The translations under genes and the position numbers were made by a program. Positions 34,070 through 51,251 of a stretch of 64,000 bases of DNA are shown piece by piece. Numbering within the stretch: position 1 is the stretch's first letter; every line of letters begins with the position of its first letter. Source of the stretch: Chitinophagaceae bacterium (GTDB lineage Bacteria; Bacteroidota; Bacteroidia; Chitinophagales; Chitinophagaceae); assembly GCA_014879565.1 (NCBI GenBank), contig JACSRW010000021.1, forward strand, positions 1 through 64,000, written 5' to 3'. Below the pieces are notes generated by a model. It had not been told where the DNA came from, made no database searches, and saw nothing but the letters and a program-made list of their open reading frames with translations.

Positions 34070-34080
34070 TAGTATAGCTA

Positions 34081-34111
34081 AAAAAATCTGGCATACCTGC
34101 CAGATTTTTTT
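34081..34111 (+). terminator. Strong rho-independent terminator of the pectin locus
   Basis: A perfect 13-bp stem (AAAAAATCTGGCA 34081-34093 with TGCCAGATTTTTT 34098-34110) has a 4-nt loop and a T run. The symmetric A and T arms let it work in both directions. It lies 12 nt after the exuT-like stop. Confidence 0.88.
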
Positions 34112-34141
34112 AGCATATGCCTATCTGTAAGTGAAATAAAA

Positions 34142-34163
34142 AAAGCTTCCTTCCGGAAGCTTT
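34142..34163. terminator. Second hairpin between exuT-like gene and gltA
   Basis: AAAGCTTCC (34142-34150) pairs with GGAAGCTTT (34155-34163) around a TTCC loop, followed by AACTTTTT. It probably ends transcription of either convergent unit. Confidence 0.7.
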
Positions 34164-34211
34164 AACTTTTTATGAAAAACAGGCAGCCCATGTTTTTTCC
34201 CTTCATTATGA

Positions 34212-34273
34212 CCTGCTAACTATTAACTCCTGTCTCCCGACTCCCGTCTCCCAACTCCCGACTCCTATCTCCC
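34212..34273 (-). repeat. Purine-rich degenerate repeat after gltA
   Basis: Read on the minus strand, units such as GGGAGTC, GGGAGAC and GGGAGTT recur at 7-8 nt steps immediately after the gltA stop codon. A very similar tract follows the thioredoxin gene at 63428-63485. Confidence 0.6.
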
Positions 34274-35599
34274 CTACTCTCCCCAGATATTATCCTTTCC
34301 GTCCAGCCAAAGTTTCACAAGGTCAGTTGTCACCGATTTCGGTCTTTCCAGCGGGAAGCCGAGGGCGCGGTCCCAGCAAAGGGAAGCCAGTACGCCCAGG
34401 GCGCGGCTAACGGCAAATAATACAGTATAGAATTCATATTCCACCATCCCGTAATGCACCAGCAGTGCCCCGCTATGCGCATCCACATTGGGCCAGGGAT
34501 TTTTGATTTTACCCAGCGTTTGCAGGATCGGGGGAACTGTTTCATAGATATTCCAGATGGTTTGCACCAGTTTGTCATCCGGCATATGTTTTTTGCCGAA
34601 TTCCATCTGGGCCGTAAAGCGGGGATCCGTTTTGCGCAATACGGCATGACCATAACCCGGTACCACTTTCCCTTCGCTCAGGGTCTTCTTCACATAATCG
34701 GCGATCTGCTCTTTGGAAGGCAGGTCGGTATTCAGTTCCTCCTGCATATCAAAGACCCATTTGATCACTTCCTGGTTGGCCAGTCCGTGCAGGGGGCCAG
34801 CCAGGCCATTCATACCGGCCGCATAGGCCAGGTAAGGATCGCTCAGCGCGGACCCCACCAGGTGGGTGGTATGGGCCGATACGTTGCCCCCCTCATGGTC
34901 GGCATGGATGGTCATATAAAGCCGCATCAGTTCGCGGAAACTTTCGTCCTCATAACCCAGCATATGGGCCAGGTTACCGGCCCAGTCAAGCAGGCCGTTC
35001 GGCTGGATATGGTCTCCGTTCTTGTATTTACGACGGTAGATATAGGCGGCAATACGGGGCAGACGGGCGAGTAAGACGATGCTGTCATCGAATACCGGCA
35101 GCCAGTAATCCTTTTTATTGATGCCTTCGGCGTATTTTTTCTGGAAATAACTTTCCGTTTGCAGGGCCATGACGCCCACAACAAACATCGTCATAGGATG
35201 CGCAGTGATCGGCAAGGCATCAATGGCTTCAAAAACGTGAGTGGGAACGTGGCTTCGCCGCTGAAGAATATTCGTTACATGGCCTGCTTCTTCGTCTGTG
35301 GGCAGCTCCCCGATCAGCATCAGGTAAAAAAGGCCTTCCGGCAAGGGTTCATTGCCCCCCGGTGCCTTGGGCAATTTCGCCTGCAGGTCGGGAATGGAAT
35401 AACCCCGGAAGCGGATTCCTTCCTGAGCATCCAGCAGGGAAGTCTCGGTAACCAGGCCGGTCATTCCGCGCATCCCCTGATAAATCTGGGACAGGGTTAC
35501 TTCTCCGATTTTTTTATTCCCATGTTCTTTAAGGATTTCTTTAATCTCGGCGCCAACGCTGTCGGCTTTGGCCCTGAAACGGTCTTTAATGATTCCCAT
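34274..35599 (-). CDS. gltA: Citrate synthase, mitochondrial-like type
   Basis: 441 aa. Active-site regions are HADHEGGNVSAHT, GLAGPLHGLANQEV (with the catalytic His) and GKVVPGYGHAVLRKTDPR, and the catalytic Asp region PWPNVDAHSG. These match mitochondrial citrate synthases almost word for word and differ from the allosteric E. coli type. It condenses oxaloacetate and acetyl-CoA at the entry of the TCA cycle. A GACCTTTG box on the minus strand (35668-35675), one mismatch from consensus, may be its promoter. Confidence 0.95.
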   Translation of the reverse strand: MGIIKDRFRAKADSVGAEIKEILKEHGNKKIGEVTLSQIYQGMRGMTGLVTETSLLDAQEGIRFRGYSIPDLQAKLPKAPGGNEPLPEGLFYLMLIGELPTDEEAGHVTNILQRRSHVPTHVFEAIDALPITAHPMTMFVVGVMALQTESYFQKKYAEGINKKDYWLPVFDDSIVLLARLPRIAAYIYRRKYKNGDHIQPNGLLDWAGNLAHMLGYEDESFRELMRLYMTIHADHEGGNVSAHTTHLVGSALSDPYLAYAAGMNGLAGPLHGLANQEVIKWVFDMQEELNTDLPSKEQIADYVKKTLSEGKVVPGYGHAVLRKTDPRFTAQMEFGKKHMPDDKLVQTIWNIYETVPPILQTLGKIKNPWPNVDAHSGALLVHYGMVEYEFYTVLFAVSRALGVLASLCWDRALGFPLERPKSVTTDLVKLWLDGKDNIWGE

Positions 35600-35707
35600 A
35601 CGTCCTTGGTTTTCGGGGGAGTGATAGATAAATTTCGAGGGCTAAAAGTACTGAATGCCCATCTGGATAACAAAAACAAAGGTCGAAAGTTTAACCGTTT
35701 CTGCAGG

Positions 35708-35758
35708 GTGACTTATCGCACTTTCAACCCTTTCCCGACTCTTGTCTCCGGAGCCCTT
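35708..35758 (-). repeat. Short purine-rich tract after the LptF/G permease gene
   Basis: On the minus strand, GGAGACAAGAGTCGGGAAAGG follows the permease stop codon closely. It is a shorter and weaker member of the post-stop purine repeat group. Confidence 0.35.
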
Positions 35759-35760
35759 TC

Positions 35761-36858
35761 TTATTTCGGTGTTTTCCGGTAGAGCCAGAACGCCACAAAC
35801 GTGAATACTATATTGGGCAGCCAGGCGGCCAGGAATGGAGGAAAACTGCCCTTGGTGGCAAATACGGTGGAGAACCGGTCAGATATTATAAAAATGGCTG
35901 CTATGATGATCCCCAGAGCCAGGTGCATTCCGCTTCCGCCCCTGGTTTTCCGGCTGGCAATGACCGCACCGATCATGGTCAGGAGCAATACCGTGGCAGA
36001 TACTGCTGTCCGGCGATACCATTCTACCTGCAACACGTTCAATCCTTCTGTTCCCCTGAGTTTCTCCCGCCGGATATAGCTGGCCAGTTCCCGGGAAGTG
36101 AGTTTATCTTTCAGGTAATCATCCTTCCGTAATTCTTCCGGCCGGAGATTGAGCCGCAACAGCAGCGTATCATGATTTACCATTCTCTCCCCGGCGCTGT
36201 CAATAAACCGTTCGGCAGCCCGGATCAGTTTCCATTTTTTGGTGAGGGTATCCCAGCCAATTGATTCTGACCGGAGGTTATACACCACTTTATTCTCCTT
36301 TATCCTTTCCAGAAAAAAGCCCCGGGCATATTTGGTGCTGGTATCAAAGTCACGGATGCCCACAAACGTATTGGTATCAATCCGGAGATAAAAACAACGG
36401 GTACAGGTGCCATAGGTTCGGTTTTTGGAGGGATCCTTGATATCTATATACCGGGATTGAAAATCTGCCTTGATGGCATTGGCTTTTGGAATCCAGAAAC
36501 TATTGCCCAGCCAAAGCACAAATGCCAGGAATATTCCCCCGACAAAATAGGGACGTAAAAACCGGTTATAGCTGGTACCGCTGGCCTGGATGGCTATAAC
36601 TTCTGACCGGGTAGCCATCCGGCTTGTAAAAAAAATAACTGCTATAAAAACAAAGAGGGGAAAAAGAAGACTCCATATCCAGGGCACAAAACCCAGGTAG
36701 TATTTATGGATGATTTCCCGGGTGGAAAAACCTGCCGTAACAAAATCATCCGCTTTTTCGCTGCTGTCAACCGCTACGGCTATGACCGTAAACAGGAGCA
36801 TGCAGAACACAAAAGTGACCAGGAATTTTTTCAGTATGTACCAGTCGAGTCGGCGCAT
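35761..36858 (-). CDS. LptF/LptG family permease (YjgP/YjgQ)
   Basis: 365 aa with a first membrane helix (LDWYILKKFLVTFVFCMLLFTVIAVAVD) and helices near 60-80 and three at the C-terminus, with a large periplasmic domain between. This is the LptF/LptG layout: an inner-membrane permease that, with LptB, extracts lipopolysaccharide. Only one such gene is in the window; which of the two subunits it is cannot be decided. It begins 48 nt from the tgt stop. Confidence 0.9.
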   Translation of the reverse strand: MRRLDWYILKKFLVTFVFCMLLFTVIAVAVDSSEKADDFVTAGFSTREIIHKYYLGFVPWIWSLLFPLFVFIAVIFFTSRMATRSEVIAIQASGTSYNRFLRPYFVGGIFLAFVLWLGNSFWIPKANAIKADFQSRYIDIKDPSKNRTYGTCTRCFYLRIDTNTFVGIRDFDTSTKYARGFFLERIKENKVVYNLRSESIGWDTLTKKWKLIRAAERFIDSAGERMVNHDTLLLRLNLRPEELRKDDYLKDKLTSRELASYIRREKLRGTEGLNVLQVEWYRRTAVSATVLLLTMIGAVIASRKTRGGSGMHLALGIIIAAIFIISDRFSTVFATKGSFPPFLAAWLPNIVFTFVAFWLYRKTPK

Positions 36859-36906
36859 GAACGTGCGAAATTACGGGATAATACTGTTGCGGCTTTGTGA
36901 AAGAAA

Positions 36907-38046
36907 TTAGCGTTTTTGTTTCAGCCTTGGTATCATTTGCTCTTTCCAGGCTTTATAGTCGCCCTCTTGTATATGTTTCCGGGCTTCCCCTACCAGCCAG
37001 AGATAAAACGCGAGATTGTGTACACTGGCAATGGTCAGCCCCAGGATTTCCTTCGCTTTCATCAGGTGCCGGAGATAGGCTTTACTGTAATAGGCGCTGC
37101 TGGCGCAGCCGATTCCCTCATCTATCGGTGAATAGTCAAACTCCCACTTTTTATTGTCAATATTGATCACCCCTTCGGAGGTAAAGAGCATGGCGTTCCG
37201 GCCGTTTCGGGTAGGCATCACACAGTCAAACATATCCACTCCCATCCCGATGCATTCCAGGATATTCCAGGGTGTGCCGACTCCCATCAGGTAACGGGGG
37301 CGGTCGGCCGGCAGATGATCACAGCACCAGTCGCAGATCTCATACATTACCGGTTCGGGTTCGCCCACACTGAGGCCGCCGATGGCATGACCGGTTGCGC
37401 CCTTACTGCTGATATATTCACAGGACTCCTTACGCAGGTCGCGGAAAGTCCCCCCCTGCACAATCGGAAAAAGGTTTTGCGTATACCCATATCTGGGCTC
37501 CGTAGCGGTAAACTGTTCCCAGCAGCGGTCCAGCCAGCGATGGGTGAGCTGCATGGATTGCCGGGCGTATTTATATTCACTGCCTCCCGGCGGACATTCA
37601 TCAAAAGCCATGATAATATCTCCCCCGATTGACCGCTGGATATCCATTACTTTCTCCGGAGAAAACAGATGACGGGACCCGTCAATATGAGATTGAAAAG
37701 TGACTCCTTCTTCCTTGATTTTCCGGGTACCGGCCAGTGAAAAGACCTGGTAACCACCACTATCAGTAAGGATGGGATGATTCCAGCCGTTAAACCGGTG
37801 CAATCCGCCGGCTTTTTCCAGGACCTCCAGCCCGGGACGCAGGTACAGGTGATAGGTATTGCCCAGAATTATCTGCGCTTTTACCTCATTTTCCAGCTGG
37901 CCTTGTGTAACCGCTTTCACGCTTCCTACTGTTCCTACCGGCATAAAAATGGGGGTCAGAATCTCCCCGTGATCGGTAGTTATCTTACCCGCCCGGGCCT
38001 TGCTGCCCGTATCCCGGTGTTGCAGTTCAAATGAAAGTGCTGGCAT
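36907..38046 (-). CDS. tgt: tRNA-guanine(34) transglycosylase with altered zinc site
   Basis: 379 aa from the ATG at 38046; an upstream TTG frame is less likely. Catalytic segments are present: LTDSGGYQVFSLAG, the Asp-rich AFDECPPGG, AIGGLSVGEP and MGVGTPWNI. It exchanges guanine for the queuine precursor at tRNA position 34. The usual C-x-C-x2-C zinc cysteines are not conserved: the region reads EGIGCASSAYYSKAYLRHL, with one Cys, while the His of SVHNLAFY is kept. I recall the same loss in other Bacteroidota. Confidence 0.95.
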   Translation of the reverse strand: MPALSFELQHRDTGSKARAGKITTDHGEILTPIFMPVGTVGSVKAVTQGQLENEVKAQIILGNTYHLYLRPGLEVLEKAGGLHRFNGWNHPILTDSGGYQVFSLAGTRKIKEEGVTFQSHIDGSRHLFSPEKVMDIQRSIGGDIIMAFDECPPGGSEYKYARQSMQLTHRWLDRCWEQFTATEPRYGYTQNLFPIVQGGTFRDLRKESCEYISSKGATGHAIGGLSVGEPEPVMYEICDWCCDHLPADRPRYLMGVGTPWNILECIGMGVDMFDCVMPTRNGRNAMLFTSEGVINIDNKKWEFDYSPIDEGIGCASSAYYSKAYLRHLMKAKEILGLTIASVHNLAFYLWLVGEARKHIQEGDYKAWKEQMIPRLKQKR

Positions 38047-38133
38047 AGGGCGCAAGATACTCCGAATCTGTTTTCCACAACCTGTGAAATACCCTTACCG
38101 GCGGGAAATCAGCCGCTTCTTACCTTCGCCGCT

Positions 38134-39255
38134 ATGCCACCAATTAACTGGGAAGAAATCCTTTTCTTTTTTTTTGTACTGCTGACCATTGTCCAGCTTT
38201 TCTATTATGGCTGGTATTACAGCCGGGTGGCTTTTTACAAACAGAAACCACGGAGCCGGAATCTTCAGCATCCCGTGTCTGTGATTATTTGCGCCCGGGA
38301 TGAGGATGAAAACCTGGCCCGGAATCTGCCGGGTGTACTGGTACAGCAATACCCCAGCAGCTGGGAAACGGTGGTAATTAATGATAATTCACTGGACGAC
38401 TCAAAGTACATTCTGCAGGAACTCAAGAAAACATTTAAGTCGCTCAATGTGGTAGAACTTACACAGGAAGCCAAACTGATTTCCGGGAAAAAATACCCTC
38501 TGTCCATCGGTATCCGGGAGGCCCGCCATGAAGTATTACTGCTTACAGATGCGGATTGTGTACCCTCCAGCGAATACTGGATTGAAAAGATGCAGGCTGC
38601 TTATGCAGAAGGAACTGAAATTGTGCTGGGATATGGCGCTTATCACCGGAAAAAGGGATTACTCAACAAGCTGATCCGGTTTGAAACCTTTCATACCGCC
38701 CTTCAATACCTGTCCTATGCGCTGGCTGGTATTCCCTATATGGGTGTGGGCCGTAATCTTTCCTATAAAAAAGGGCTCTTTCTGCGTAACAAGGGTTTCT
38801 CGTCAATCAATCATATCCCCAGCGGAGATGACGACCTGTTTATCAATAAAGTCGCCACCCGGGAGAATACTGCTGTGGTTTTAGATCCGGACGCCATCAC
38901 CCGGTCGGTACCCAAGACCACCTGGGGCGGGTGGCTGAGGCAGAAATCCAGGCATTATACCACCGCCAAATATTATAAACCTGTCCATAAATTTCTCCTG
39001 GGATTATACTTCATTACCCAGTTTCTCTATTATCCGGCTTTTGTCACTTCGCTCATTTTTTTCGACTGGCGCTGGGTACTGCCTGTTTTTGGGCTGCGTT
39101 TCCTGTTACAGGCTGTCGTGCTGTATAAGTCCATGAAAAAACTCGGAGAAGGAGATCTGTGGCCCTGGTTTCTTGTACTCGACCTCTGGATGTTCTTTTA
39201 TTATCTCATCTTTGCACCGGCTTTATGGCGCAAACCGCGTCACAGCTGGAACTGA
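38134..39255 (+). CDS. Membrane-anchored family 2 glycosyltransferase
   Basis: 373 aa. One N-terminal membrane helix (about 9-28) precedes the GT-A domain: VSVIICARDEDENLARNLPGVL, VINDNSLDD, LLLTDADCVPS (DxD-like) and the acceptor region SGDDDLFINKV. QKSRHYTTAKYYK is a Q-x-R-W-like motif, followed by three C-terminal helices. It probably transfers a sugar to a lipid or polysaccharide at the inner membrane; the product is unknown. A TACCTTCG box at 38121-38128, one mismatch from consensus, lies only 6 nt before the start. Confidence 0.85.
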   Translation: MPPINWEEILFFFFVLLTIVQLFYYGWYYSRVAFYKQKPRSRNLQHPVSVIICARDEDENLARNLPGVLVQQYPSSWETVVINDNSLDDSKYILQELKKTFKSLNVVELTQEAKLISGKKYPLSIGIREARHEVLLLTDADCVPSSEYWIEKMQAAYAEGTEIVLGYGAYHRKKGLLNKLIRFETFHTALQYLSYALAGIPYMGVGRNLSYKKGLFLRNKGFSSINHIPSGDDDLFINKVATRENTAVVLDPDAITRSVPKTTWGGWLRQKSRHYTTAKYYKPVHKFLLGLYFITQFLYYPAFVTSLIFFDWRWVLPVFGLRFLLQAVVLYKSMKKLGEGDLWPWFLVLDLWMFFYYLIFAPALWRKPRHSWN

Positions 39256-39259
39256 ACTC

Positions 39260-39907
39260 ATGACAGATAAAGGCATCACATTACTCAGTCGTTATTTTAC
39301 GGACTTTACGGATACACAGACCGCCCAGTGGGAGGCAATGGAGCATCTGTACCGGGAATGGAATGAAAAAATCAATGTTATTTCCAGAAAGGATATTGAC
39401 AGCCTTTATGAAAAGCATGTTTTACATTCATTGAGTATTGCAGCATCTTTCTCCTTTGAACCGGGAACTGAAATTATTGACCTCGGTACAGGCGGCGGTT
39501 TTCCGGGTATTCCCCTGGCTGTCTTCTTTCCGGAAGTGAAATTTTTACTGGTTGACAGTATCGCAAAAAAACTTAAAGTGGTGGAAGCCGTCGCCGAAGG
39601 AATCGGATTGAAAAATGTAACTACCCTGCACAGCCGTGCAGAGGAAATCAAGAACAGGCAATTTGACTTTGTCGTATCCCGGGCGGTGGCTCCCCTGAAA
39701 GATCTCTGGAGCTGGAGTAAACCTTTACTGAAAAAAAAGCCGGTTTCCGTTGCCGCCGCCTATTCACCGGGGCTGATTTGCCTGAAAGGCGGGGATCTGG
39801 CAAAAGAAATACAGGAAAGCGGCACCCGGCCGCGTATGATGGAAATACATGAAATGTTTCCGGAAGATTTTTTCCGGGAGAAATACCTTCTTTATGTTAC
39901 CCGGTGA
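39260..39907 (+). CDS. rsmG: 16S rRNA (guanine527-N7)-methyltransferase
   Basis: 215 aa from the ATG at 39260; the longer open frame overlaps the glycosyltransferase. SAM-binding motif IIDLGTGGGFPGIPLAVFFP, LLVDSIAKKLKVVEAVAEGIGL and the conserved VSRAVAPL identify RsmG (GidB). Start of the gene is 4 nt after the glycosyltransferase stop. Confidence 0.94.
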   Translation: MTDKGITLLSRYFTDFTDTQTAQWEAMEHLYREWNEKINVISRKDIDSLYEKHVLHSLSIAASFSFEPGTEIIDLGTGGGFPGIPLAVFFPEVKFLLVDSIAKKLKVVEAVAEGIGLKNVTTLHSRAEEIKNRQFDFVVSRAVAPLKDLWSWSKPLLKKKPVSVAAAYSPGLICLKGGDLAKEIQESGTRPRMMEIHEMFPEDFFREKYLLYVTR

Positions 39908-39912
39908 AAAAA

Positions 39913-39927
39913 TACCATTAAGTGGTA
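39913..39927. promoter_or_regulatory. NarL-like inverted repeat before the response regulator gene
   Basis: TACCATTAAGTGGTA, with flanking AA and TT. Compared with the perfect copy at 40657-40672 it lacks one base. It abuts a TTG at 39928 and lies 36 nt before the regulator start codon, so it may mediate autoregulation. Confidence 0.5.
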
Positions 39928-39958
39928 TTGACTCTTCTCCGTTTATTACAGAACTTTA
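39928..39958 (+). promoter_or_regulatory. Weak candidate promoter of the response regulator gene
   Basis: TTG (39928-39930) and GAACTTTA (39951-39958) are spaced by 20 nt; the -7 box has two mismatches to TAnnTTTG. The start of transcription would fall at or next to the ATG at 39963, giving a leaderless or nearly leaderless mRNA. Confidence 0.35.
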
Positions 39959-39962
39959 ACCC

Positions 39963-40610
39963 ATGCGACAGATCACTGTTTTTATTGTGGACGATAACCG
40001 GGAACTGCGGAATGCCCTGGAAGAGATTGTTTCCATGTCGGAAGGCTACCGCTGTACCGGAACGGCCAGTTCTGCAGAAGAAGCAGTGGACCGGATCCCT
40101 ATTTGCCGGCCGGATGTGGTGCTGATGGATATTAATCTCGGAACGGAAGAAAGCGGGATAGATGTGGTGCGTATGCTGAAACCCAGGGTGCCGGACACCA
40201 ATTTTATGATCTGTACGGTCTATGAAGAGGATGAAAAAATCTTTGAAGCGCTGAGCGCCGGCGCCAGCGGCTATATTCTTAAAAAGACGCCCCCCGGCCG
40301 GATGCTGGAAGCGATCCGGGAATTGTATGAAGGGGGCGCCCCCATGAGCAGTCAGATTGCCCGGAAAGTGGTTGCGGCCTTCCAACAACAGCAAAACCAG
40401 GCGCCAGCCGGTGATGCGGAAAAACTCAATGTATTAACAGCCCGGGAAATGGAAATCCTGGAACTGCTGTCAAAGGGCTTAATGTATAAGGAAATTGCCT
40501 CCCAGACTTTTCTCAGCCCGGAAACAGTACGCAAACATGTATACCATATATATGAAAAGTTACACGTAACCAACCGGGTAGCCGCTGTCAATAAGTTCTA
40601 CGGGCGTTGA
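39963..40610 (+). CDS. Orphan NarL/FixJ-type response regulator
   Basis: 215 aa. The receiver domain (1-120) has the acid pair D10-D11, phospho-acceptor D56 (VVLMDINLG), T85 and K107. The LuxR-type helix-turn-helix (about 150-215) has LTAREMEILELLSKGLMYKEIASQTFLSPETVRKHVYHIYEKL. No histidine kinase lies nearby, so the partner is elsewhere. Inverted repeats resembling the NarL 7-2-7 site (TACCACn/nGTGGTA) flank the gene at 39913 and 40657, and the second sits on a promoter for a likely small RNA. These are the natural targets of this protein. Confidence 0.92.
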   Translation: MRQITVFIVDDNRELRNALEEIVSMSEGYRCTGTASSAEEAVDRIPICRPDVVLMDINLGTEESGIDVVRMLKPRVPDTNFMICTVYEEDEKIFEALSAGASGYILKKTPPGRMLEAIRELYEGGAPMSSQIARKVVAAFQQQQNQAPAGDAEKLNVLTAREMEILELLSKGLMYKEIASQTFLSPETVRKHVYHIYEKLHVTNRVAAVNKFYGR

Positions 40611-40656
40611 CTTTTTGCAGGTTTTTGCGGGTTATTTTCAGAAAGGGCAAAAAAAA

Positions 40657-40672
40657 TACCACGAAAGTGGTA
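40657..40672. promoter_or_regulatory. Perfect NarL-like 7-2-7 inverted repeat before the putative sRNA
   Basis: TACCACGAAAGTGGTA, extended by AAA and TTT to a 22-bp palindrome (40654-40675). Its centre lies about 45 bp before the predicted transcription start and it touches the TTTG of the -33 box, the usual place for an activator contacting sigma. It can also be read as an RNA hairpin with a GAAA loop ending the regulator mRNA. Confidence 0.6.
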
Positions 40673-40703
40673 TTTGATGGCTTATGGGCTAATCCTATTT
40701 TTG
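40673..40703 (+). promoter_or_regulatory. Consensus promoter of the putative sRNA
   Basis: TTTG (40673-40676), 19 nt, then TATTTTTG (40696-40703): exact matches to the Bacteroidota -33 and -7 elements, with the same spacing as the promoter before the DUF2795 gene. Transcription should start near 40710. Confidence 0.65.
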
Positions 40704-40709
40704 ACTAAG

Positions 40710-40818
40710 TAAAAAACACTAAAAAGCCCTTAACCTTAAAACTTATCCTATTCCCTATAAAGGGCCCTGGTGCAAACCATTAACCCGCCCCTGCATTCCG
40801 GCAGGGGCGCCTTTTTTT
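40710..40818 (+). ncRNA. Putative small RNA between the response regulator and M1 peptidase genes
   Basis: About 109 nt lies between a consensus promoter and a strong terminator. It contains no ATG-started ORF. GCCCTT (40726-40731) can pair with AAGGGC (40760-40765), and the 3' terminator hairpin forms a second stem, leaving an A- and U-rich 5' region that could base-pair with mRNAs. The 5' end and expression are inferred only; the region could instead be a long 3' UTR. Confidence 0.45.
40786..40818 (+). terminator. Rho-independent terminator of the putative sRNA
   Basis: CGCCCCTGC (40786-40794) pairs with GCAGGGGCG (40801-40809) around a 6-nt loop, followed by CC and seven T. The T run is on the plus strand, so it ends transcription coming from the regulator or sRNA side, not the M1 gene. 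Confidence 0.85.
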
Positions 40819-40828
40819 GTAAAATCAC

Positions 40829-42670
40829 CTACCACTTCAATTCTAACTTATTGTTTTTCCGGTCAATATCTGCCATACGCTGGGAGGCATCAATTTCAGC
40901 CACCTGAATATCGGTCAGCCTGCGGGAGGTTTCTATCGTATAGGTCGGATGTGTCCATTTCCAGGGAGTATAGCTGATCCGGGGTATGGTACTGTCTTCC
41001 ACGGGTTTTGAGCCATACATCAGGTTCATCGGTATATAATGCAGTTCTTTGCTGCCGTCCCGGAAACTGAGTTGCAGGTCAACAGGCATCGGCATCAAGC
41101 CGATTCGCTGCAGCCTGATTTTCGTTTTTCCGCCTTCTTCCCAGAGACTGTCAATGGCATAATCAATTGTCTTGGTGGTATGAATCCAGTATTCCTTATA
41201 CCAGTCTAGTTTCATGCCACTGGTTTTCTCCGCCACCCGGATAAAGTCAGTCGCATTGGGATGCTTGAATTTCCATTGTTGATAATAATTCAGGAGTATC
41301 TGGTCTCTGACCCCGGCACCGGTTATATAACCCAGTTGTTCCACAAATACACCGCCCTTTGAATAAACAGCCGCTCCGTATGCCGCATTGGTATTAAAAT
41401 GATCTGCATGGGTGCTGAGGGGCTCTTCCCGTCCGCTTTTGGCCAGTGACTGGTAGCCGCGATAGGTGCCTTCCATTGCGAATCCGGGATTATTTTCCAG
41501 GAATGCCATTACTTTATCTTCCGCATAGGTAGTAAACCCTTCATCCATCCAGCCATAAAGAGATTCATTGGTACCGAGAATGCCGTAATACCAGTTATGC
41601 AGCCATTCATGCAACCAGGCCCCGGGGCCGATGAGCAGGGTTGACATCGGGTATTCCATGCCTCCATCACCCCCATGTATAAACGAAAATTGCTTGTACG
41701 GGTAAGGGCCAAAATTCTTTTCAATAAAAGGCAGGGCCCTTTCAGCATCATCCAGTACTTTTTCCCATTCCGCTGCGGATGCATTGGTGGGTTTGTATAA
41801 TAAATGCAGGGTGAGACTGTCCCTGACCTTTCGTGTTTTGTGAATATAGTCCGGATCAGCCGCCCACATAAAGTCGTGTACATTGGGAGCGAGAAAACGC
41901 CAGGTTAGTTTATCCCCGGCCGGGCGGGTAACTTTTGTACCGGGCTGCTCGTACCCGTAACCGATCTGGGCTGCATTCTGTAAATACCCGGTACCGCCAA
42001 GTATATAATTTTTATCAATACGGATACTGACATCAAAATCGCCCCAGACTCCATAAAACTCCCTGCCTACATAAGGGGTAGGGTGCCAGCCTTCGTAATC
42101 ATATTCACAAATCTTGGGATACCACTGGCTCATAGAATAACGTACACGGGATGAAGGATTATCCCGTCCGCTTCGCCGGATCTGGAGGGGTACCTGTGCT
42201 TCAAATTCCATTTCAAATACCACTTTTGTTCTCGGCAGGATGGGTCTGGAAAGTCTGACTTCCAGGATGGTTTCATCCATCGTGAATTCCTGTGGTTTCC
42301 CGTTCATCCTGAGCGCAAGTATTTTCTGGTAGCCAGTTTCTTCCGGTTTCAGTTTCTGTATCCGGTCACGCACACGCATATCCCAGTCTGCCCCCCGGCC
42401 AACTGTTATGGTTCCCTGCCGGCGGCTGCGGGTATCCATCATACTACCGGGCTGAAAGGCATTAAAATAAAGATGATAAAATACCCGGTCCAGTGTATCC
42501 GGAGAATTGTTCCAGTATTCCAGTTTTTGCTTACCGGTAAACCGGTTTGTCTGAACATTCATATCCACCTGCATGGTGTACTTCACTTTTTGCTGCCAAC
42601 GGTCCGGCTGGGAGTTAGCGCCGAAAGAACATATCAACAACAAAGCCAGGGAAAACAATCTCTTGTGCAT
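40829..42670 (-). CDS. M1-family metallopeptidase, secreted
   Basis: 613 aa with a signal peptide (ends GANS). The zinc site HEWLHN with the third ligand Glu exactly 18 residues further on (GWMDEGFTTYAED) is the gluzincin pattern, and GGMEYP replaces the usual GAMEN exopeptidase motif. A beta-rich N-terminal domain begins at about residue 25. It is an aminopeptidase-type enzyme in the periplasm or outside. It is shorter than PepN, like many Bacteroidota M1 enzymes. Confidence 0.92.
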   Translation of the reverse strand: MHKRLFSLALLLICSFGANSQPDRWQQKVKYTMQVDMNVQTNRFTGKQKLEYWNNSPDTLDRVFYHLYFNAFQPGSMMDTRSRRQGTITVGRGADWDMRVRDRIQKLKPEETGYQKILALRMNGKPQEFTMDETILEVRLSRPILPRTKVVFEMEFEAQVPLQIRRSGRDNPSSRVRYSMSQWYPKICEYDYEGWHPTPYVGREFYGVWGDFDVSIRIDKNYILGGTGYLQNAAQIGYGYEQPGTKVTRPAGDKLTWRFLAPNVHDFMWAADPDYIHKTRKVRDSLTLHLLYKPTNASAAEWEKVLDDAERALPFIEKNFGPYPYKQFSFIHGGDGGMEYPMSTLLIGPGAWLHEWLHNWYYGILGTNESLYGWMDEGFTTYAEDKVMAFLENNPGFAMEGTYRGYQSLAKSGREEPLSTHADHFNTNAAYGAAVYSKGGVFVEQLGYITGAGVRDQILLNYYQQWKFKHPNATDFIRVAEKTSGMKLDWYKEYWIHTTKTIDYAIDSLWEEGGKTKIRLQRIGLMPMPVDLQLSFRDGSKELHYIPMNLMYGSKPVEDSTIPRISYTPWKWTHPTYTIETSRRLTDIQVAEIDASQRMADIDRKNNKLELKW

Positions 42671-42744
42671 TGGAATAAATTTCTGTTTAGACGATAAATA
42701 TCGGGAAAAGCTGTTTGCGGAATTACAAAAATTGATGGCCGGGC

Positions 42745-43410
42745 TTATTCCGTGCCCTGTACAACAAGGACAATTTCCCCTTTTACGGATCCGTTCCGGA
42801 AATAATCCGCCAGTTCCTGCAAACTGCCTCTTTTATTTTCTTCAAAGAGTTTGGTCAGTTCGCGGCTTACGGCAGCAGGCCGGTCTGGTCCGAAAAACTG
42901 AACCAGGTCATCAAGGGTTTTAACCAGCCGCAGGGGTGATTCATAAAAAATCATGGTTCGCTCTTCGGTCGCCAGCTTCCGGAGCAAGGTCTGTCGTCCT
43001 TTTTTTTGCGGCAAAAATCCTTCAAAACAAAACCGGTTACAGGGAATCCCGCTGTTTACGAGTGCCGGAACAAAAGCGGTGGCTCCGGGCAGCGATTCCA
43101 CCCTTACCCCCGCCCGGATACATTCTCTGACCAGCAGGAAGGCAGGATCCGAGATTCCCGGTGTACCCGCATCCGTTATAAGGGCCATTTTTTTGCCTGC
43201 CTGCAACTGGTCTACCAGGTGTTGCAGCACTTTATGTTCATTATGCTGGTGATAGGGGGTAAGGGGTTTCGTTATCCCATAATGATTCAGCAGATGTGAA
43301 CTGGTACGGGTGTCCTCCGCCAGAATAAGATCCGCTTCTTTAAGCACATCAAGCGACCGAAGGGTAATATCCCTGAGATTACCGATGGGTGTGGGAACGA
43401 GGTAGAGCAA
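42745..43410 (-). CDS. rsmI: 16S rRNA (cytidine1402-2'-O)-methyltransferase
   Basis: 221 aa. The family begins LYLVPTPIGNLRDITLRSL; here the best start is the TTG at 43410 directly before it, since there is no ATG and the upstream frame codes for degenerate repeat sequence. Other motifs are AEDTRTSSHLLNHYGI, LITDAGTPGISDP, FEGFLPQKKG and FYESPLRL. It methylates the ribose of C1402 in 16S rRNA. Confidence 0.92.
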   Translation of the reverse strand: MLYLVPTPIGNLRDITLRSLDVLKEADLILAEDTRTSSHLLNHYGITKPLTPYHQHNEHKVLQHLVDQLQAGKKMALITDAGTPGISDPAFLLVRECIRAGVRVESLPGATAFVPALVNSGIPCNRFCFEGFLPQKKGRQTLLRKLATEERTMIFYESPLRLVKTLDDLVQFFGPDRPAAVSRELTKLFEENKRGSLQELADYFRNGSVKGEIVLVVQGTE

Positions 43411-43502
43411 GGTTGATAGGTTGAAATGCTGGAAAGTTGAAAAGTTGAACAAGTTAACTTGCAATTGTTGTTTGGAGTTCCTTGTTACCCTTTCAACCTG
43501 TA
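43411..43502 (-). repeat. Degenerate repeat between purS and rsmI
   Basis: On the minus strand the tract has GGTTGAAAGGG early and then CAACTTTTCAACTTTCC and TTTCAACC, so the two halves are partly complementary. It lies between the purS stop and the rsmI start and lengthens the rsmI frame artificially. Confidence 0.5.
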
Positions 43503-43504
43503 AA

Positions 43505-43750
43505 CTAGTCAACTGTTATCTCAAAATACTCCATCACCGGATTGCTCAGCAACTTTTTACTGGCTTCTTCGGCAATGGATCTGGCCTGTTCAGGAGTGCC
43601 AGCCTTTACCTGCAGGGAAATATGTTTGCCCACGCGTACATCCTCCACTCCTTCCAGCCCCAGATTAGCCAATCCGCCCATCACGGCTTTTCCCTGGGGA
43701 TCCAGCAGTTCTTTAAGCGGCATCACTTTGATCTGTACAGTATAGGTCAT
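43505..43750 (-). CDS. purS: Phosphoribosylformylglycinamidine synthase subunit PurS
   Basis: 81 aa, the normal size of PurS. The pattern YTVQIKVMPLKELLDPQGKAV, then LGLEGVEDVRVGKHISLQV and LLSNPVMEYFEI is typical. It forms a complex with PurL and PurQ in purine synthesis; neither of these is nearby. The start overlaps the pssA stop by 4 nt. Confidence 0.93.
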   Translation of the reverse strand: MTYTVQIKVMPLKELLDPQGKAVMGGLANLGLEGVEDVRVGKHISLQVKAGTPEQARSIAEEASKKLLSNPVMEYFEITVD

Positions 43751-44511
43751 GTAACTTTATTTTTGAAAAGCAAAGATAAGAGAACATAGGCCAAAATAAC
43801 GACCGGTACTGCCATCCATTTCAGCAGTAAAAAACCGACCAGGGCCAGTACCAGCAACAGGTACCGGGGAAAATTATCCTGTAACCTGAAATTCTTAAAT
43901 TTCATGGCCATCAGGGGCAGGGTGGAAACCATCAACCAGGAAAGCAACAAGGTAAGCCCATATATCAGCCATTTACTGGTCAGCAGATCTGCTACTACCT
44001 GCGACTGGTTGTAAAAATAAATCAGCGGCAGGGAGGCAACCAGTATTCCGGCGGCCGGTACCGGCATGCCTTTGAAGTAAAAGGTTTGCTCTTTATCGAG
44101 ATTAAATCTTGCCAGCCGGTAAGCTGCTGCACAGGGTAATAGAAACACAGGCAACAGCCAGAGCATGGATACCTCTACACCATCGGGTTCATTGGCATAA
44201 CTTAACCGCAAAAACTGATAAAGGATCAGAGCGGGGGCCACGCCAAAACTCACCAGGTCTGCCAGTGAATCAAGCTGTTTCCCCATTTCTGAAGAGGCAC
44301 CGAAAAGTCTTGCCACAAAACCGTCCAGAAAATCCACAATGGCAGCCAGCCCGATAAAAAGGGAGGCCATCCACACTTTTTCCGGGATATCCAGCAGTTC
44401 AGTGCCTTCCGCATTCACCAGGATAATAATTCCGTTTTGCAGAATAAATACGATTGCAATACAACCAAAGAGAAGGTTGAGCAGGGTAAAAAGGTTGGGA
44501 ATATGCTTCAT
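43747..44511 (-). CDS. pssA: CDP-diacylglycerol-serine O-phosphatidyltransferase
   Basis: 254 aa with about eight membrane helices. The CDP-alcohol phosphotransferase motif is complete: DGFVARLFGASSEMGKQLDS followed by LAD (D-G-x2-A-R-x8-G-x3-D-x3-D). It makes phosphatidylserine, the precursor of phosphatidylethanolamine, in the inner membrane. It begins KHIPNLFTLLNLLFGC, as in the family. Confidence 0.94.
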   Translation of the reverse strand: MKHIPNLFTLLNLLFGCIAIVFILQNGIIILVNAEGTELLDIPEKVWMASLFIGLAAIVDFLDGFVARLFGASSEMGKQLDSLADLVSFGVAPALILYQFLRLSYANEPDGVEVSMLWLLPVFLLPCAAAYRLARFNLDKEQTFYFKGMPVPAAGILVASLPLIYFYNQSQVVADLLTSKWLIYGLTLLLSWLMVSTLPLMAMKFKNFRLQDNFPRYLLLVLALVGFLLLKWMAVPVVILAYVLLSLLFKNKVT

Positions 44512-44696
44512 GTGGGTTGAGGGGTTGAGAAGTTGAGGAGTTGAGAGGTTTGCCTGCCCGCTGTAGCCTTAGCAGCATAGGGAGGGATTGAGGGATCAAA
44601 TAAAATGAATAAAAAGCAGATGTAAGTTTCCATTCCCCACTTTCCACTTTCCACTTCCCACTTTCTATTTTCCACTCCCCGTTCTCCTCCCGGCAC
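44512..44696 (-). repeat. Degenerate repeat region between pepP-like gene and pssA
   Basis: Just after the aminopeptidase stop (44628-44696, minus strand) there are units such as GTGGGAA and GTGGAAA at about 7-nt steps. The far end (44512-44560) has TTGAGGAG-type units on the other strand. There is no ORF or RNA gene. Confidence 0.5.
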
Positions 44697-45986
44697 TCAC
44701 TTTTTCATCAGTGCTTCAATCTCATCTGTTGTTATCGGAATATTTTTCATCAGGTCAATGCTTCCGCTTTTGGTGATCCAGAAATTATTTTCTATCCGCA
44801 CTCCCATCTGCTCTTCTTCAATATAAATACCCGGCTCAATAGTAAAGACCATACCGGCTTTTACCGGTTCGGTACGGGTACCCAGATCATGTACATCTAT
44901 ACCCAGGTGGTGTGAAATTCCATGATACAGATACTTCCGATAGGCACGGTTGGCCGGATCCTCGTTTTTTACCTCCTGTTTGCTGAGCAGCCCGATTTTT
45001 ACAAACTGCTTAGTGGCTTCCTCACCTACTTTATCTGTATAGGCAACAATGCTGATCCCTGGCTTCAGAATGGATTTTGCATAGTTGTGAAGATGCAGAC
45101 AGGCGTTGTATACTTCTTTTTGCCTTTTTGTAAATTTTCCGTTAACCGGAACCGTTCTGGTCAGATCCGCACAATAACCGCCGTACTCCGCCCCAAAATC
45201 CATCAGTACCAGTTCCCCGTCCTTACATTCCTGATCATTGCTGACATAATGAAGCGTACGGGCCCTGTCGCCACTGGCAATAATACTTCCATAGGCCGGT
45301 CCGGTTGCCCGCTGACTAAGGAAAGAATGGAATATTTCCGCCTCAATTTCATATTCCATCACCCCAGGCCGGATAAACTTCAGGAGCCGGCGAAATGTCC
45401 GATCCGTAATGTCTATAGCCTGCTGCATTACTTCCACTTCGTGAGCTGTTTTCACCGCCCTTAACTCCTTCATGATTTTCGCCGCCCGGAGAAAATTATG
45501 AAGGGGATAGCGGGCTTTCATTTCATCTATAAACCGGTATTCCCGGGAACGGAGTTGCACGGACCGCCGGTCGTTTTCATTACTGTCAAGATAGATATTG
45601 TCTGCCAGGTGTACCCAGGGCTGCAGCAACCCCTCAAGACTGTCGAGCCAGACAATCGTTTTTATGCCGCTGATTTCCTGGGCTTCTTTAACGCGCAGCC
45701 TTTTACCATCCCATTTTTCCTTTAGCTCATTGGGCCTTACCAGCACCAGTACTTCCCTGTACAACGGATCCGGGTTGTCAGGAAAAAGGATGACCATACT
45801 GTCTTCCTGTGTTATTCCGCTCAGCCAGAACAGGTCGCTGTTTTGTTTAAAACTGTAAATCGCATCCCCGTTGCTGGGCACTTCATCATTGCTGACAAAC
45901 AGGGCGATGGAACCGGGTTGCATCTGCCGGACAAACCGTTTCCGGTTCTGAACAAAAATTTGCGGGTTTAACGGGAGGTATTTCAT
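44697..45986 (-). CDS. Aminopeptidase P family protein (M24B)
   Basis: 429 aa. The N-terminal creatinase-like domain (1-170) is followed by the pita-bread catalytic domain with the metal ligands in LMDFGAEYGGYCADLTRTVP (two Asp), GISHHLGIDVHD (His), VFTIEPGIYIE (Glu) and GVRIEN (Glu). It removes N-terminal residues preceding proline from peptides in the cytoplasm. Confidence 0.93.
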   Translation of the reverse strand: MKYLPLNPQIFVQNRKRFVRQMQPGSIALFVSNDEVPSNGDAIYSFKQNSDLFWLSGITQEDSMVILFPDNPDPLYREVLVLVRPNELKEKWDGKRLRVKEAQEISGIKTIVWLDSLEGLLQPWVHLADNIYLDSNENDRRSVQLRSREYRFIDEMKARYPLHNFLRAAKIMKELRAVKTAHEVEVMQQAIDITDRTFRRLLKFIRPGVMEYEIEAEIFHSFLSQRATGPAYGSIIASGDRARTLHYVSNDQECKDGELVLMDFGAEYGGYCADLTRTVPVNGKFTKRQKEVYNACLHLHNYAKSILKPGISIVAYTDKVGEEATKQFVKIGLLSKQEVKNEDPANRAYRKYLYHGISHHLGIDVHDLGTRTEPVKAGMVFTIEPGIYIEEEQMGVRIENNFWITKSGSIDLMKNIPITTDEIEALMKK

Positions 45987-46229
45987 TTTCTTTGATTAAT
46001 GGCCCGGGGCCGGTGTTAAAGATAAGCTGCTGGTGCTGAACCGGGCCGGTCTTCCTGCCGGAAGGGCATAACCCTGGTTTCGCCTTCTTGCTCAACTTTT
46101 CAGTAATGATGGCGAAATTTATGAGAATTTCCCGGATTTCTGACTGATAAATATATAACTGACAATCTTTTAGACTAAAAAAAGCCAGACAAAAACTAAC
46201 ACTCGTATGCAAAATACGGTTTTTGCTGT

Positions 46230-46237
46230 TACCTTTG
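46230..46237 (+). promoter_or_regulatory. -7 box of pckA
   Basis: TACCTTTG is an exact TAnnTTTG match. Transcription would start near 46244, which excludes the upstream in-frame ATG at 46207 and supports the start at 46264. No clear -33 box was seen. Confidence 0.6.
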
Positions 46238-46263
46238 TCGCTTCACCAACGATGCTTGCTTTT

Positions 46264-47868
46264 ATGTCAGTACCTGTAATGAATTTCAAGGCCCCGCAAT
46301 TGCTGCGTATCGGGCTTCAGCACACCGACTCTATCCGTTACCAGCTCAGTCCGGATGAACTGATACGCGACACAATCCGGCTTGGGGAAGGAGAACTCAA
46401 CGATACCGGTGCCCTGGTTATTCGCACCGGTGAGTTTACCGGCCGGTCGCCGAAAGATAAATATACCGTACGGGATGAAATAACTACTGAAACAGTTCAC
46501 TGGAATGAGTTCAATATTCCAATGGATGAAAAATATTTTGACAGCATCTTTGACAGGGTCACCCGCTATCTTAACCAGTTACCTGAAATATGGGTAAGAG
46601 ATTGTTATGCCTGCGCTGACCCCCGTTATCGTTTATCCGTTCGTGTGGTCAACGAAAAACCCTGGACCAATCTTTTTGTTTACAACATGTTTCTCCGTCC
46701 GGCTGAAGAAGAGCTGCCGGACTTTTCTCCCGATTGGCATGTACTCTCCGCTCCCGGGCTTCGGTTGAATCCGGACGAGTGCGGAACCCGGCAGCATAAC
46801 GCCGCTGTTGTATCCTTTAAACATAAAATGATCCTGATTGCCGGCACGGGCTATACCGGAGAAACCAAAAAAGGGATTTTCACCATTCTGAATTATATAC
46901 TGGCACAGGAAAAAGGAGTATTGCCTATGCATTGCAGTGCCAATATGGGACCAGCCGGTGATACCGCCATATTTTTTGGGCTGAGCGGGACCGGTAAAAC
47001 CACCCTCAGCGCTGATCCGGAACGGATGCTGATCGGAGATGATGAACATGGCTGGACGACCGACAGCATTTTTAACTTTGAAGGAGGCTGTTATGCAAAG
47101 ACAATTAATCTGACCGAAGAAAAAGAACCGGAGATTTTCCGGGCGATACGACCGGGCGCCCTGGTGGAAAACATCCTTTTTTATCCGGACAGTAACCGGA
47201 TCAATTTTGATGATGCGACGATTACGGAAAACACCCGTGTATCTTATCCGCTGCATTTTATCAGCAATGCCAAAGAACCTTCTGTGGCGGGTTTGCCGAA
47301 AAATATTTTCTTCCTTACCTGTGATGCTTTTGGAGTGTTACCACCGGTTTCCCGGCTGAGTACCGGGCAGGCTATGTACCAGTTTATTTCCGGTTATACT
47401 GCAAAAGTTGCCGGAACTGAAGCCGGTGTTACAGAACCCAAACCGACTTTCAGTGCCTGTTTTGGCGCCCCCTTCCTTCCGCTTCATCCGGGTAAATATG
47501 CCGGAATGCTGGGCCAAAAAATGCAGGAAAATCAGGTGAACGTATGGATGATCAATACAGGCTGGACCGGCGGACCCTATGGTACCGGCCGGCGAATGAA
47601 ACTGTCTTATACCCGGGCCATGATCACTGCCGCCCTGGAAGGCAAACTGGATAACGCAGAATTTGTATACGACCCGGTGTTCGGGCTGGCTATTCCGCTC
47701 TCCTGCCCCGGGGTACCGGATGAATTGCTGCAACCCCGTAATACCTGGGCTGATCCGGCTGCCTATGATGAAAAAGCCAGGTACCTTGCCGGACTGTTTA
47801 TCCGAAATTTTGAAAAATATAAAGAGGGAGTCAGTGCGGAGACCCTGGCTGCCGCACCAAAAATCTGA
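46264..47868 (+). CDS. pckA: Phosphoenolpyruvate carboxykinase (ATP)
   Basis: 534 aa from ATG 46264, the normal length; the longer frame from 46207 would start before the predicted transcription start. Motifs are RTGEFTGRSPKDKY, HCSANMG, the P-loop FGLSGTGKTTLSAD, IGDDEHGW and NTGWTGGPYGTGRRMKL. It turns oxaloacetate into phosphoenolpyruvate for gluconeogenesis, which fits growth on pectin where KDPG aldolase produces pyruvate. ATG 46279 is a possible alternative start. Confidence 0.95.
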   Translation: MSVPVMNFKAPQLLRIGLQHTDSIRYQLSPDELIRDTIRLGEGELNDTGALVIRTGEFTGRSPKDKYTVRDEITTETVHWNEFNIPMDEKYFDSIFDRVTRYLNQLPEIWVRDCYACADPRYRLSVRVVNEKPWTNLFVYNMFLRPAEEELPDFSPDWHVLSAPGLRLNPDECGTRQHNAAVVSFKHKMILIAGTGYTGETKKGIFTILNYILAQEKGVLPMHCSANMGPAGDTAIFFGLSGTGKTTLSADPERMLIGDDEHGWTTDSIFNFEGGCYAKTINLTEEKEPEIFRAIRPGALVENILFYPDSNRINFDDATITENTRVSYPLHFISNAKEPSVAGLPKNIFFLTCDAFGVLPPVSRLSTGQAMYQFISGYTAKVAGTEAGVTEPKPTFSACFGAPFLPLHPGKYAGMLGQKMQENQVNVWMINTGWTGGPYGTGRRMKLSYTRAMITAALEGKLDNAEFVYDPVFGLAIPLSCPGVPDELLQPRNTWADPAAYDEKARYLAGLFIRNFEKYKEGVSAETLAAAPKI

Positions 47869-51020: not shown

Positions 51021-51251
51021 ATTATAAGGTTTGGTTTGCCTACTCTGTTCAATACCCGGTTTTCGGCTTCCCCGTGTTTGCCGGCCTTATGGTCAGCCGG
51101 TTAACAGGATGAAAGTAAAACCACGACCGGGGGTGGCAAGGGGAAAATCACCGCCATTTTCTGTTTTTTTTCCCGCTATACCTCTCCCTTTCCTGTAGCA
51201 ACCGGATTTAACCTTCCGTCACAGATTCCCGTCCTGAACCGGGGCTTTGAC

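Follow-up and report, generated by a model that had tools for sequence, protein, structure and literature searches.

A response regulator gene between two putative operator-promoter elements

The window analyzed here, a stretch of 64,000 nucleotides from a Chitinophagaceae bacterium (assembly GCA_014879565.1, contig JACSRW010000021.1), carries on its plus strand a response regulator (RR) gene at 39963-40610 that is preceded and followed by similar inverted repeats, the second of which stands before a predicted small RNA (sRNA) of about 110 nt, referred to as RNA-A (40708-40818). The gene order is glycosyltransferase, rsmG, RR, RNA-A, and a convergent M1 peptidase. An earlier note on this DNA had read the locus as an autoregulated regulator that switches on an RNA of this size, a reading which our sequence comparisons support through the conserved order of the parts, the common right half of the two repeats, and their equal distance to a promoter box. 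In function we go beyond that note, as RNA-A is probably an RR-controlled sponge of a second, FopS-like sRNA (referred to as RNA-B) that is encoded outside the window.

Both palindromes and the RR open reading frame (ORF) lie where the earlier note had placed them. Operator 1 (TACCATTAAGTGGTA, 15 bp, 39913-39927), a putative autoregulatory site, is followed after 23 nt by GAACTTTA (39951-39958), a weak version of the TAnnTTTG -7 box; both were recognized from the sequence and from relatives, as was operator 2 (TACCACGAAAGTGGTA, 40657-40672), which at 16 bp is longer by 1 bp. Operator 2 belongs to the putative RNA-A promoter (40673-40703), whose TTTG (40673-40676), 19-nt spacer, and TATTTTTG (40696-40703) are exactly as had been claimed and conform to the sigma-ABfr consensus (TAnnTTTG at -7, TTTG near -33) given in PMC7366714. 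The position of the -7 box relative to the transcription start site was taken from PMC9723704, and RNA-A would start at about 40708-40710. Behind this promoter, the anticipated strong intrinsic terminator is present (40786-40818; stem 40786-40809, T-run to 40818) and may by read-through also serve the RR mRNA. Between promoter and terminator the plus strand has no ORF of at least 60 aa, and no frame of at least 6 codons was listed within the pre-terminator part of RNA-A.

The RR protein combines a receiver domain (REC; PF00072, 80.8 bits) with a GerE LuxR-type helix-turn-helix (HTH; PF00196, 65.2 bits), both above cut-off, and is thus a NarL/FixJ-type response regulator. Its closest solved relatives are DevR/DosR, VraR, and NarL, which have the REC plus GerE HTH architecture in common with it. 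No NCBIfam family was above cut-off among the best 25 of 75 matches, and the NarL equivalog NF007935 scored 123.6 bits against a cut-off of 250. DevR/DosR, VraR, and NarL regulators use inverted-repeat operators, and the NarL consensus consists of inverted TACYYMT heptamers spaced by 2. The operator TACCAC-N3/4-GTGGTA was compared, by eye, with the NarL heptamer. The analogy to NarL 7-2-7 sites drawn in the earlier note holds for the 16-bp geometry of the downstream site (TACCACG-AA-AGTGGTA), but the fit to TACYYMT is partial and the upstream site measures 15 bp, so that a full NarL 7-2-7 arrangement was not found.

The 3.43-Mb genome has a single perfect TACCACNNNNGTGGTA, and in a search of 11 genomes for perfect TACCAC-N3/4-GTGGTA the own genome yielded two matches, one at this locus and one at C1:137060 near radC. 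When one mismatch is tolerated, the window holds 5 copies of TACCANNNNNNTGGTA where 1.44 would be expected, so a lone loose palindrome is weak evidence; it is conservation, not the palindrome alone, that makes the element real.

Upstream of operator 1 lie a glycosyltransferase family 2 gene (38134-39255, plus strand, PF00535) and rsmG (39260-39907, plus strand), which encodes the 16S rRNA m7G527 methyltransferase (PF02527; TIGR00138 above cut-off); the domain matches of the latter were made on a longer ORF (39173-39904), and its start was assigned at ATG 39260. The convergent M1-family peptidase gene (PF01433) occupies 40829-42670 on the minus strand. No kinase was recognized among the ORFs at 34000-47000, which were inspected by eye only, with four proteins profile-searched. 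An Rfam search of the window returned no family for RNA-A at the gathering score; its one match lies elsewhere, a DUF805b RNA (RF02914) at 51037-51076 on the minus strand, with 36.1 bits just above the gathering score.

Conservation of the operator-promoter block and of RNA-A

Among 42 genomes of the same genus (genomes and loci are cited by our G and L handles where needed), 24 have an RR match at E <= 1e-60, with an identity of 72% or more in 19. Each of these 19 close orthologues is followed by the palindrome, 23 nt, a TAnnTTTG box, and a terminator-ended intergenic RNA, and 18 are also preceded by the palindrome (L056 is not). The order of palindrome, promoter, and terminator, on which the earlier note had staked its reading, is therefore kept in relatives. 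The block extends to Niastella, Flavihumibacter, Puia, Pinibacter, and many metagenome-assembled genomes (named GTDB loci).

In a wider scan of 60 RR orthologues (4 duplicates removed), the downstream block was present in 39 and absent from 21, with L149 counted among the latter. The 39 downstream sites consist of a palindrome of 16 bp (33 sites) or 15 bp (6), placed 23 nt (36) or 22 nt (3) from a -7 box that begins with TA in 38 and ends with TTTG in 29. An upstream site was scored in 55 of the 60 orthologues, 22-23 nt from its box in 54 and 21 nt in one. The 38 upstream sites at RNA-A-bearing loci are all 15 bp, at a distance of 23 nt (28) or 22 nt (10) from a box that begins with GA in 29, and the 17 in orthologues without RNA-A are placed at 23 nt (10), 22 nt (6), or 21 nt (1). 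The two sites keep an identical right half (GTGGTATTG) and an identical distance to the -7 box, so one factor acting at both promoters would fit, and this factor would most simply be the neighboring RR. Since 4-7 nt separate the box of RR itself from the ATG in 14/19 close orthologues (those measured), the RR mRNA is predicted to be leaderless or to have a very short leader.

Across relatives, conservation is strongest in the right half, GTGGTA-TTG, with drift in the left. The 6-bp arms are broken in 10/39 downstream and 25/38 upstream sites, yet these keep their right half and the 22-23 nt spacing. In its sequence the element has the look of a DNA operator whose half-site is promoter-proximal, and not of an RNA hairpin. 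Operator 2 does score as a minus-strand intrinsic terminator (40654-40675, a 9-bp stem plus T-run) facing the convergent peptidase gene, and it could in principle be nothing but the terminator of that gene, with the block behind it a shared 3' region. We regard this as extremely improbable, because the element also precedes RR, at a place that is not the end of any convergent gene, because the arms are broken while right half and spacing are kept, and because the same spacing recurs at ten further sites elsewhere in the genomes. That the palindrome serves mainly as a terminator or RNA hairpin was accordingly rejected, given the broken arms, the kept spacing, and the twin before RR; it may have a side role as peptidase terminator. 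Should the operator-2 hairpin also end the peptidase mRNA, the 3' untranslated region (UTR) of that mRNA would be antisense to RNA-A.

The composite pattern TACC-N6-8-GGTATT-N21-TAnnTTTG matches in 19/19 close-RR genomes versus 1/23 others, and its reversed control gave no match in any of the 42 genomes. A match lies at the RR locus in 18 of the 19; in G044, where the RR-locus site reads TATC..., it lies elsewhere. The sole match outside the close-RR genomes is in G020, which has no close RR and has kept the RNA. Ten further matches fall outside the RR locus, all in the 19 close-RR genomes and none in the other 23, and three of these precede the same 183-aa secreted protein (L097 in G044, L108 in G039, and L111 in G049), the ATG of which follows 4 nt past the -7 box. 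At L080 (G009:C215:10543), an RR-type palindrome precedes a different response-regulator-like gene, a possible case of cross-regulation.

A terminator was found in 38/40 RNA-As scanned (none in L132 and L147 under the criteria used), and the length from the -7 box to the terminator end is 95-163 nt in 36 of the 38, with 200 nt in L124 and 242 nt in L145. RNA-A might be only the 3' UTR of the RR mRNA, without an independent promoter: position 40786 is the sole plus-strand terminator-like site that a scan gave between RR and the peptidase, and read-through is likely. Against this stand the -7 box at fixed spacing in 39/39 loci (TTTG exact in 29) and the genomes G020 and G018, which have RNA-A and its promoter without a close RR, and we hold such an origin to be very unlikely. 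In these two genomes (no RR match at E <= 1e-60), rsmG is directly followed by palindrome, promoter, RNA-A, and terminator, although in G018 only one of the two RNA-A motifs described below, M2, is clear; RNA-A can therefore outlive its regulator gene. The peptidase 3' end lies behind RNA-A in most close relatives (by eye), and in G020 it is present as an ORF.

At ten small-genome loci (L239, L241, L243-L250), the rsmG stop is followed by a short spacer and the peptidase end (by eye), with neither RR nor RNA-A. On an RR tree of 58 rows, the presence of RNA-A takes 4 changes versus a shuffled mean of 16.2 (L149 counted as lacking it), a pattern that would agree with loss of RNA-A in a Ferruginibacter-like clade and again in a reduced clade, on a root that is only a midpoint root. 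A small protein encoded in RNA-A was considered and rejected, as no ORF recurs in the 10 RNA-As read. Rfam searches of six loci at E up to 1 gave no plausible match for RNA-A.

Two motifs recur in RNA-A, M1 (CCRTTAACC...CCTTA) and M2 (GGGGCCTTGATCAAA / GGGGCCTAATCAAA). In many RNA-As a helix, H1, is predicted in which CCCC upstream of M1 pairs with GGGG of M2; in the predicted fold of the RNA-A described here, GCCCTT of M1 forms H1 with 40760-40765. This pairing beats that of partners swapped between species (0/20000 permutations reach it, with kinship retained), and it is no stronger than -6.1 kcal/mol in 7/22 RNA-As. The evidence for an internal CCC(C)/GGG(G) helix is only suggestive.

RNA-B and its complementarity to RNA-A

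RNA-B emerged when the frequency of CCATTAACC was checked in the own genome. The idea that CCATTAACC generally marks 5' leaders in this genome was rejected, with 36 exact sites versus 51 in the reversed control and, of the 30 sites fetched, 24 inside called ORFs. RNA-B itself is extremely conserved and about 70 nt long (G000:C1:371985-372021; about 2285-2357 on the plus strand of L227) and lies between an S9 peptidase gene and ubiX (both named by eye). It consists of GGATAAGGTTTAATGGTTAATGGTTTTTGATTAGGGC followed at once by a terminator. Within the genus it is found upstream of ubiX at 11/12 loci, L231 ending at a contig edge; in G004 no ubiX was found. At up to 3 mismatches, RNA-B is present in 72/244 genomes of the family (35/101 genera) versus 0 for the reversed control, in up to 5 copies in large genomes; RNA-Bs diverged by more than 3 mismatches escape this search. 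A terminator directly follows the seed in 66/66 distinct copies, with 44 distinct stem sequences, and in 46 of the 66 the best -7-like octamer lies 10 nt upstream of GGATAAGG (matching at 6/6 positions in 16, at 5 in 8, and at 4 in 22). Two main variants occur, GGTTTTTGAT and GGTATTTGAT, referred to below by their variable base, A or T.

When the RNA-B stretch alone was searched, FopS (RF04319) was the best of 4227 Rfam families, over the whole model, with 32.1 bits and E 0.0013 at L321 and 25.5 bits and E 0.023 in the own genome. The alignment reads UUUUCAU.GGAU.AG.UUUAA.GGUUAAU..GAUU, and whole-locus searches listed FopS in 3/3 A-variant loci. As described in PMC11697453, FopS/GibS of Bacteroides thetaiotaomicron resembles RNA-B in its layout of an unpaired 5' seed followed by a terminator within about 70 nt, a layout that RNA-B indeed displays, and in its TAnnTTTG-like promoters and its multiple copies in some genomes. 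FopS differs in host range, being described there as highly conserved within Bacteroidaceae.

The two motifs of RNA-A are complementary to RNA-B: M1 (GCCCTTAACCTTAAAACTTATCC, 40726-40748) to GGATAAGGTTTAATGG, and M2 (AAGGGCCCTGGTGCAAACCATTAACC, 40760-40785) to GGTTAATGGTTTTTGATTAGGGC. Together they cover most of the unpaired region of RNA-B. In an in silico pairing test, each RNA-A without its terminator was set against the RNA-B variant of its clade and compared with 100 dinucleotide shuffles. At most 5/100 shuffles were as good in 39/42 RNA-As, with a mean z of -4.3, in rows that include the near-copies L003/L004, L052/L053, and L121/L156; the own genome gave 1/100. RNA-A thus has the extended complementarity to an sRNA seed that is expected of a sponge. 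Across the 64-kb window, 3 of the 5 best among 3196 windows of 80 nt overlap RNA-A.

The RNA-A base opposite the variable base of RNA-B was also compared. Compensatory change was first counted loosely and then with a stricter motif, TCAAAN, and the stricter count is used here. Among RNA-As keeping TCAAAN, the matching T is present in 6/6 A-variant rows versus a T in 1/20 T-variant rows. As judged from these rows, compensatory change between RNA-A and RNA-B is partly supported, in one clade only.

The two RNAs also co-occur: RNA-B is present in 40/42 RNA-A genomes versus 3/19 RR-positive, RNA-A-negative ones (two of these three at 3 mismatches). The two RNA-A genomes without RNA-B are G012, where the contig ends beside ubiX, and G317, the genome of L149. 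As the genomes are related, we read the co-occurrence as correlated loss in about two clades.

Several observations weigh against RNA-A as a regulated sponge of a FopS-like RNA. Three RNA-As fail the pairing test (L009 with 83/100 shuffles as good, L124 with 43, and L127 with 7), two windows outside RNA-A (59281 and 63041) equal it in their pairing with RNA-B, and H1 could mask some of the sequence that pairs. In the T-variant clade, the matching A is found in only 9/20 motif rows (3 of them in a different context) beside C in 7 and G in 3, and TCAAAN is absent from 11/31 T-variant and 5/11 A-variant rows. The Fisher p of 6e-10 for co-occurrence overstates independence, since the genomes are related. 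L149 is itself doubtful as an RNA-A, its operator-promoter block being off, and it lacks RNA-B. RNA-B is present in 14/16 genomes of the genus without an RR orthologue, in which no RNA-A was seen (the rsmG locus being unreadable in several of the 16), and so RNA-B works without RNA-A. In G020 and G018, either another factor drives RNA-A or RNA-A is decaying. Finally, the FopS scores lie below the gathering score of 56, short of family membership; FopS was not listed at E <= 1 for four T-variant loci in whole-locus searches; and at L329, STnc100 overlaps RNA-B with E 0.037 versus 0.07 for FopS. Because the scores are sub-threshold and whole-locus matches are weaker evidence, RNA-B is, by its sequence, called FopS-like only and not a FopS member.

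A proposed two-component-controlled sponge in Chitinophagaceae

We propose, at a probability of about 60%, that an RR-controlled RNA-A sponges the FopS-like RNA-B, that is, a two-component-controlled RNA sponge. The anatomy of the locus, its conservation, the complementarity, and the co-occurrence are supported by the comparisons above; RR binding and activation, transcription, pairing in vivo, and the direction of the effect (RNA-A antagonizing RNA-B) are inferred. In this mechanism, phosphorylated RR would bind the TACCAC-N3/4-GTGGTA operators just upstream of, and touching, the -33 region. At operator 1, RR would regulate itself via a weak GAnnTTTR box, and at operator 2, the strong TAnnTTTG promoter directly behind the RR gene would make RNA-A, which may also be made as a 3' UTR of the RR mRNA. 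RNA-A would then base-pair via two segments with RNA-B, with its unpaired 5' seed and terminator, and would sequester or inactivate it as a sponge or target mimic, relieving mRNAs with CCATTAACCATTAAACC-like leader sites.

Such sites were sought at up to 2 mismatches, and CCATTAACCATTAAACC gave 176 matches in 26 genomes versus 53 in the reversed control (counts summed by hand, RNA-B and RNA-A copies included). Forty sites were read in addition to L095, namely the best matches plus six further ones of the own genome; the choice is biased, and no rate is claimed. Of the sites read, roughly a dozen precede a start codon by 9-67 nt, and about a dozen lie just before a terminator (both by eye). FopS represses SusC translation near the start codon in Bacteroides, according to PMC11697453, and leader sites for RNA-B would fit this mode of action. 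At L095 (G008:C722), an RR-type operator-promoter is combined with an RNA-B site before a start codon whose ORF runs off the contig, and at L387 (own genome C11, about 71451, minus strand) a similar palindrome with a poor -7 box precedes an RNA-B site before a start codon.

Other sites lie in units resembling RNA-A. Intergenic M2-M1-terminator units, referred to as RNA-C, were found at L389 (own genome, C30:16991), L392, L402, L403, L408, L410, and L423, some with a TAnnTTTG-like box upstream and all without the RR palindrome (by eye). An RNA-B-complementary site also lies in the 3' region of genes at L388 (own genome C13), L401 (G050), and L393 (G040); the proteins of these genes end in NRVKTGGDN or similar, and L388 and L401 stand beside a YajQ-like gene. 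These sites suggest that RNA-B is a hub with several decoys. A fuller version of this idea, which we put forward tentatively as somewhat short of an even chance, is that RNA-B is a FopS-type hub of Chitinophagaceae, whose several sponges and 3' UTR decoys would gate many leader-site mRNAs, RNA-A being what a two-component regulator chiefly and conservedly puts out and RNA-C having its own promoter elsewhere, in a signal-controlled circuit older than the genera.

Since the complementarity between RNA-A and RNA-B is symmetric, the roles could also be reversed, with RNA-A acting as the regulator of mRNAs or of a protein, like the other M2-M1-terminator RNAs, and RNA-B titrating it; the seven RNA-C loci share the design of RNA-A and would then form an effector family with it. 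We consider this reversal unlikely, as RNA-B is far more conserved, is multicopy in large genomes, and is present in those 14/16 genomes without RR or a seen RNA-A, as target-like complements of RNA-B lie in leaders near start codons, and as FopS, the lookalike of RNA-B, is a direct repressor of mRNA according to PMC11697453. Less likely again, we judge it improbable that a single RNA-binding protein (e.g., RbpB or another RRM-1 protein) is the partner of RNA-A and of the leader or 3' UTR motifs, with pairing to RNA-B secondary. RNA-A does have conserved short CCRTTAACC repeats, FopS RNAs are ligands of RbpB according to PMC11697453, and the T-variant clade follows the variable base of RNA-B less well. 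Two segments of RNA-A, including the non-repeated GGGCCYTRATCAAA, match the complement of RNA-B, however, and the variable base is followed in the A-variant clade (6/6 rows with the motif), which a protein motif would not need.

The sponge reading can be placed beside several known systems. In RcsB-RprA, GacA/UvrY-RsmY/CsrB, and CiaR-csRNAs, a response regulator directly activates an sRNA gene; unlike in these, RNA-A lies directly behind the regulator gene and shares its operator. RsmY and CsrB titrate a protein, whereas the partner of RNA-A would be an RNA. The nearest precedent is QrrT-QrrX of Vibrio cholerae, in which, according to PMC9732341, the regulator gene lies immediately upstream of the sponge gene it activates and QrrX, the sponge, is aimed at the conserved domain through which the members of a multicopy sRNA family pair. 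The likeness lies in the order of regulator and sponge genes and in a multicopy sRNA as the target. QrrT-QrrX differs in having a LysR-type factor, in being Hfq-dependent, and in being gammaproteobacterial, and the relation is one of layout; here, by contrast, the regulator is a NarL/FixJ-type RR whose own promoter carries the same operator, and the arrangement spans several genera of Bacteroidota.

What is known of post-transcriptional control in Bacteroidota comes mainly from Bacteroides, through GibS, FopS, and RbpB, as described in PMC11697453. A literature search, mostly without full texts, met no sponge of this kind in the phylum, and the word "sponge" occurs 0 times in the main text of the FopS paper (PMC11697453). 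If the proposed circuit is true, a FopS-like sRNA would exist far outside Bacteroidaceae and would have a sponge, and the most conserved outputs of a two-component system would be its own promoter and that sponge. The conserved seed, the sponges, and the leader sites would be directly testable by compensatory mutation.

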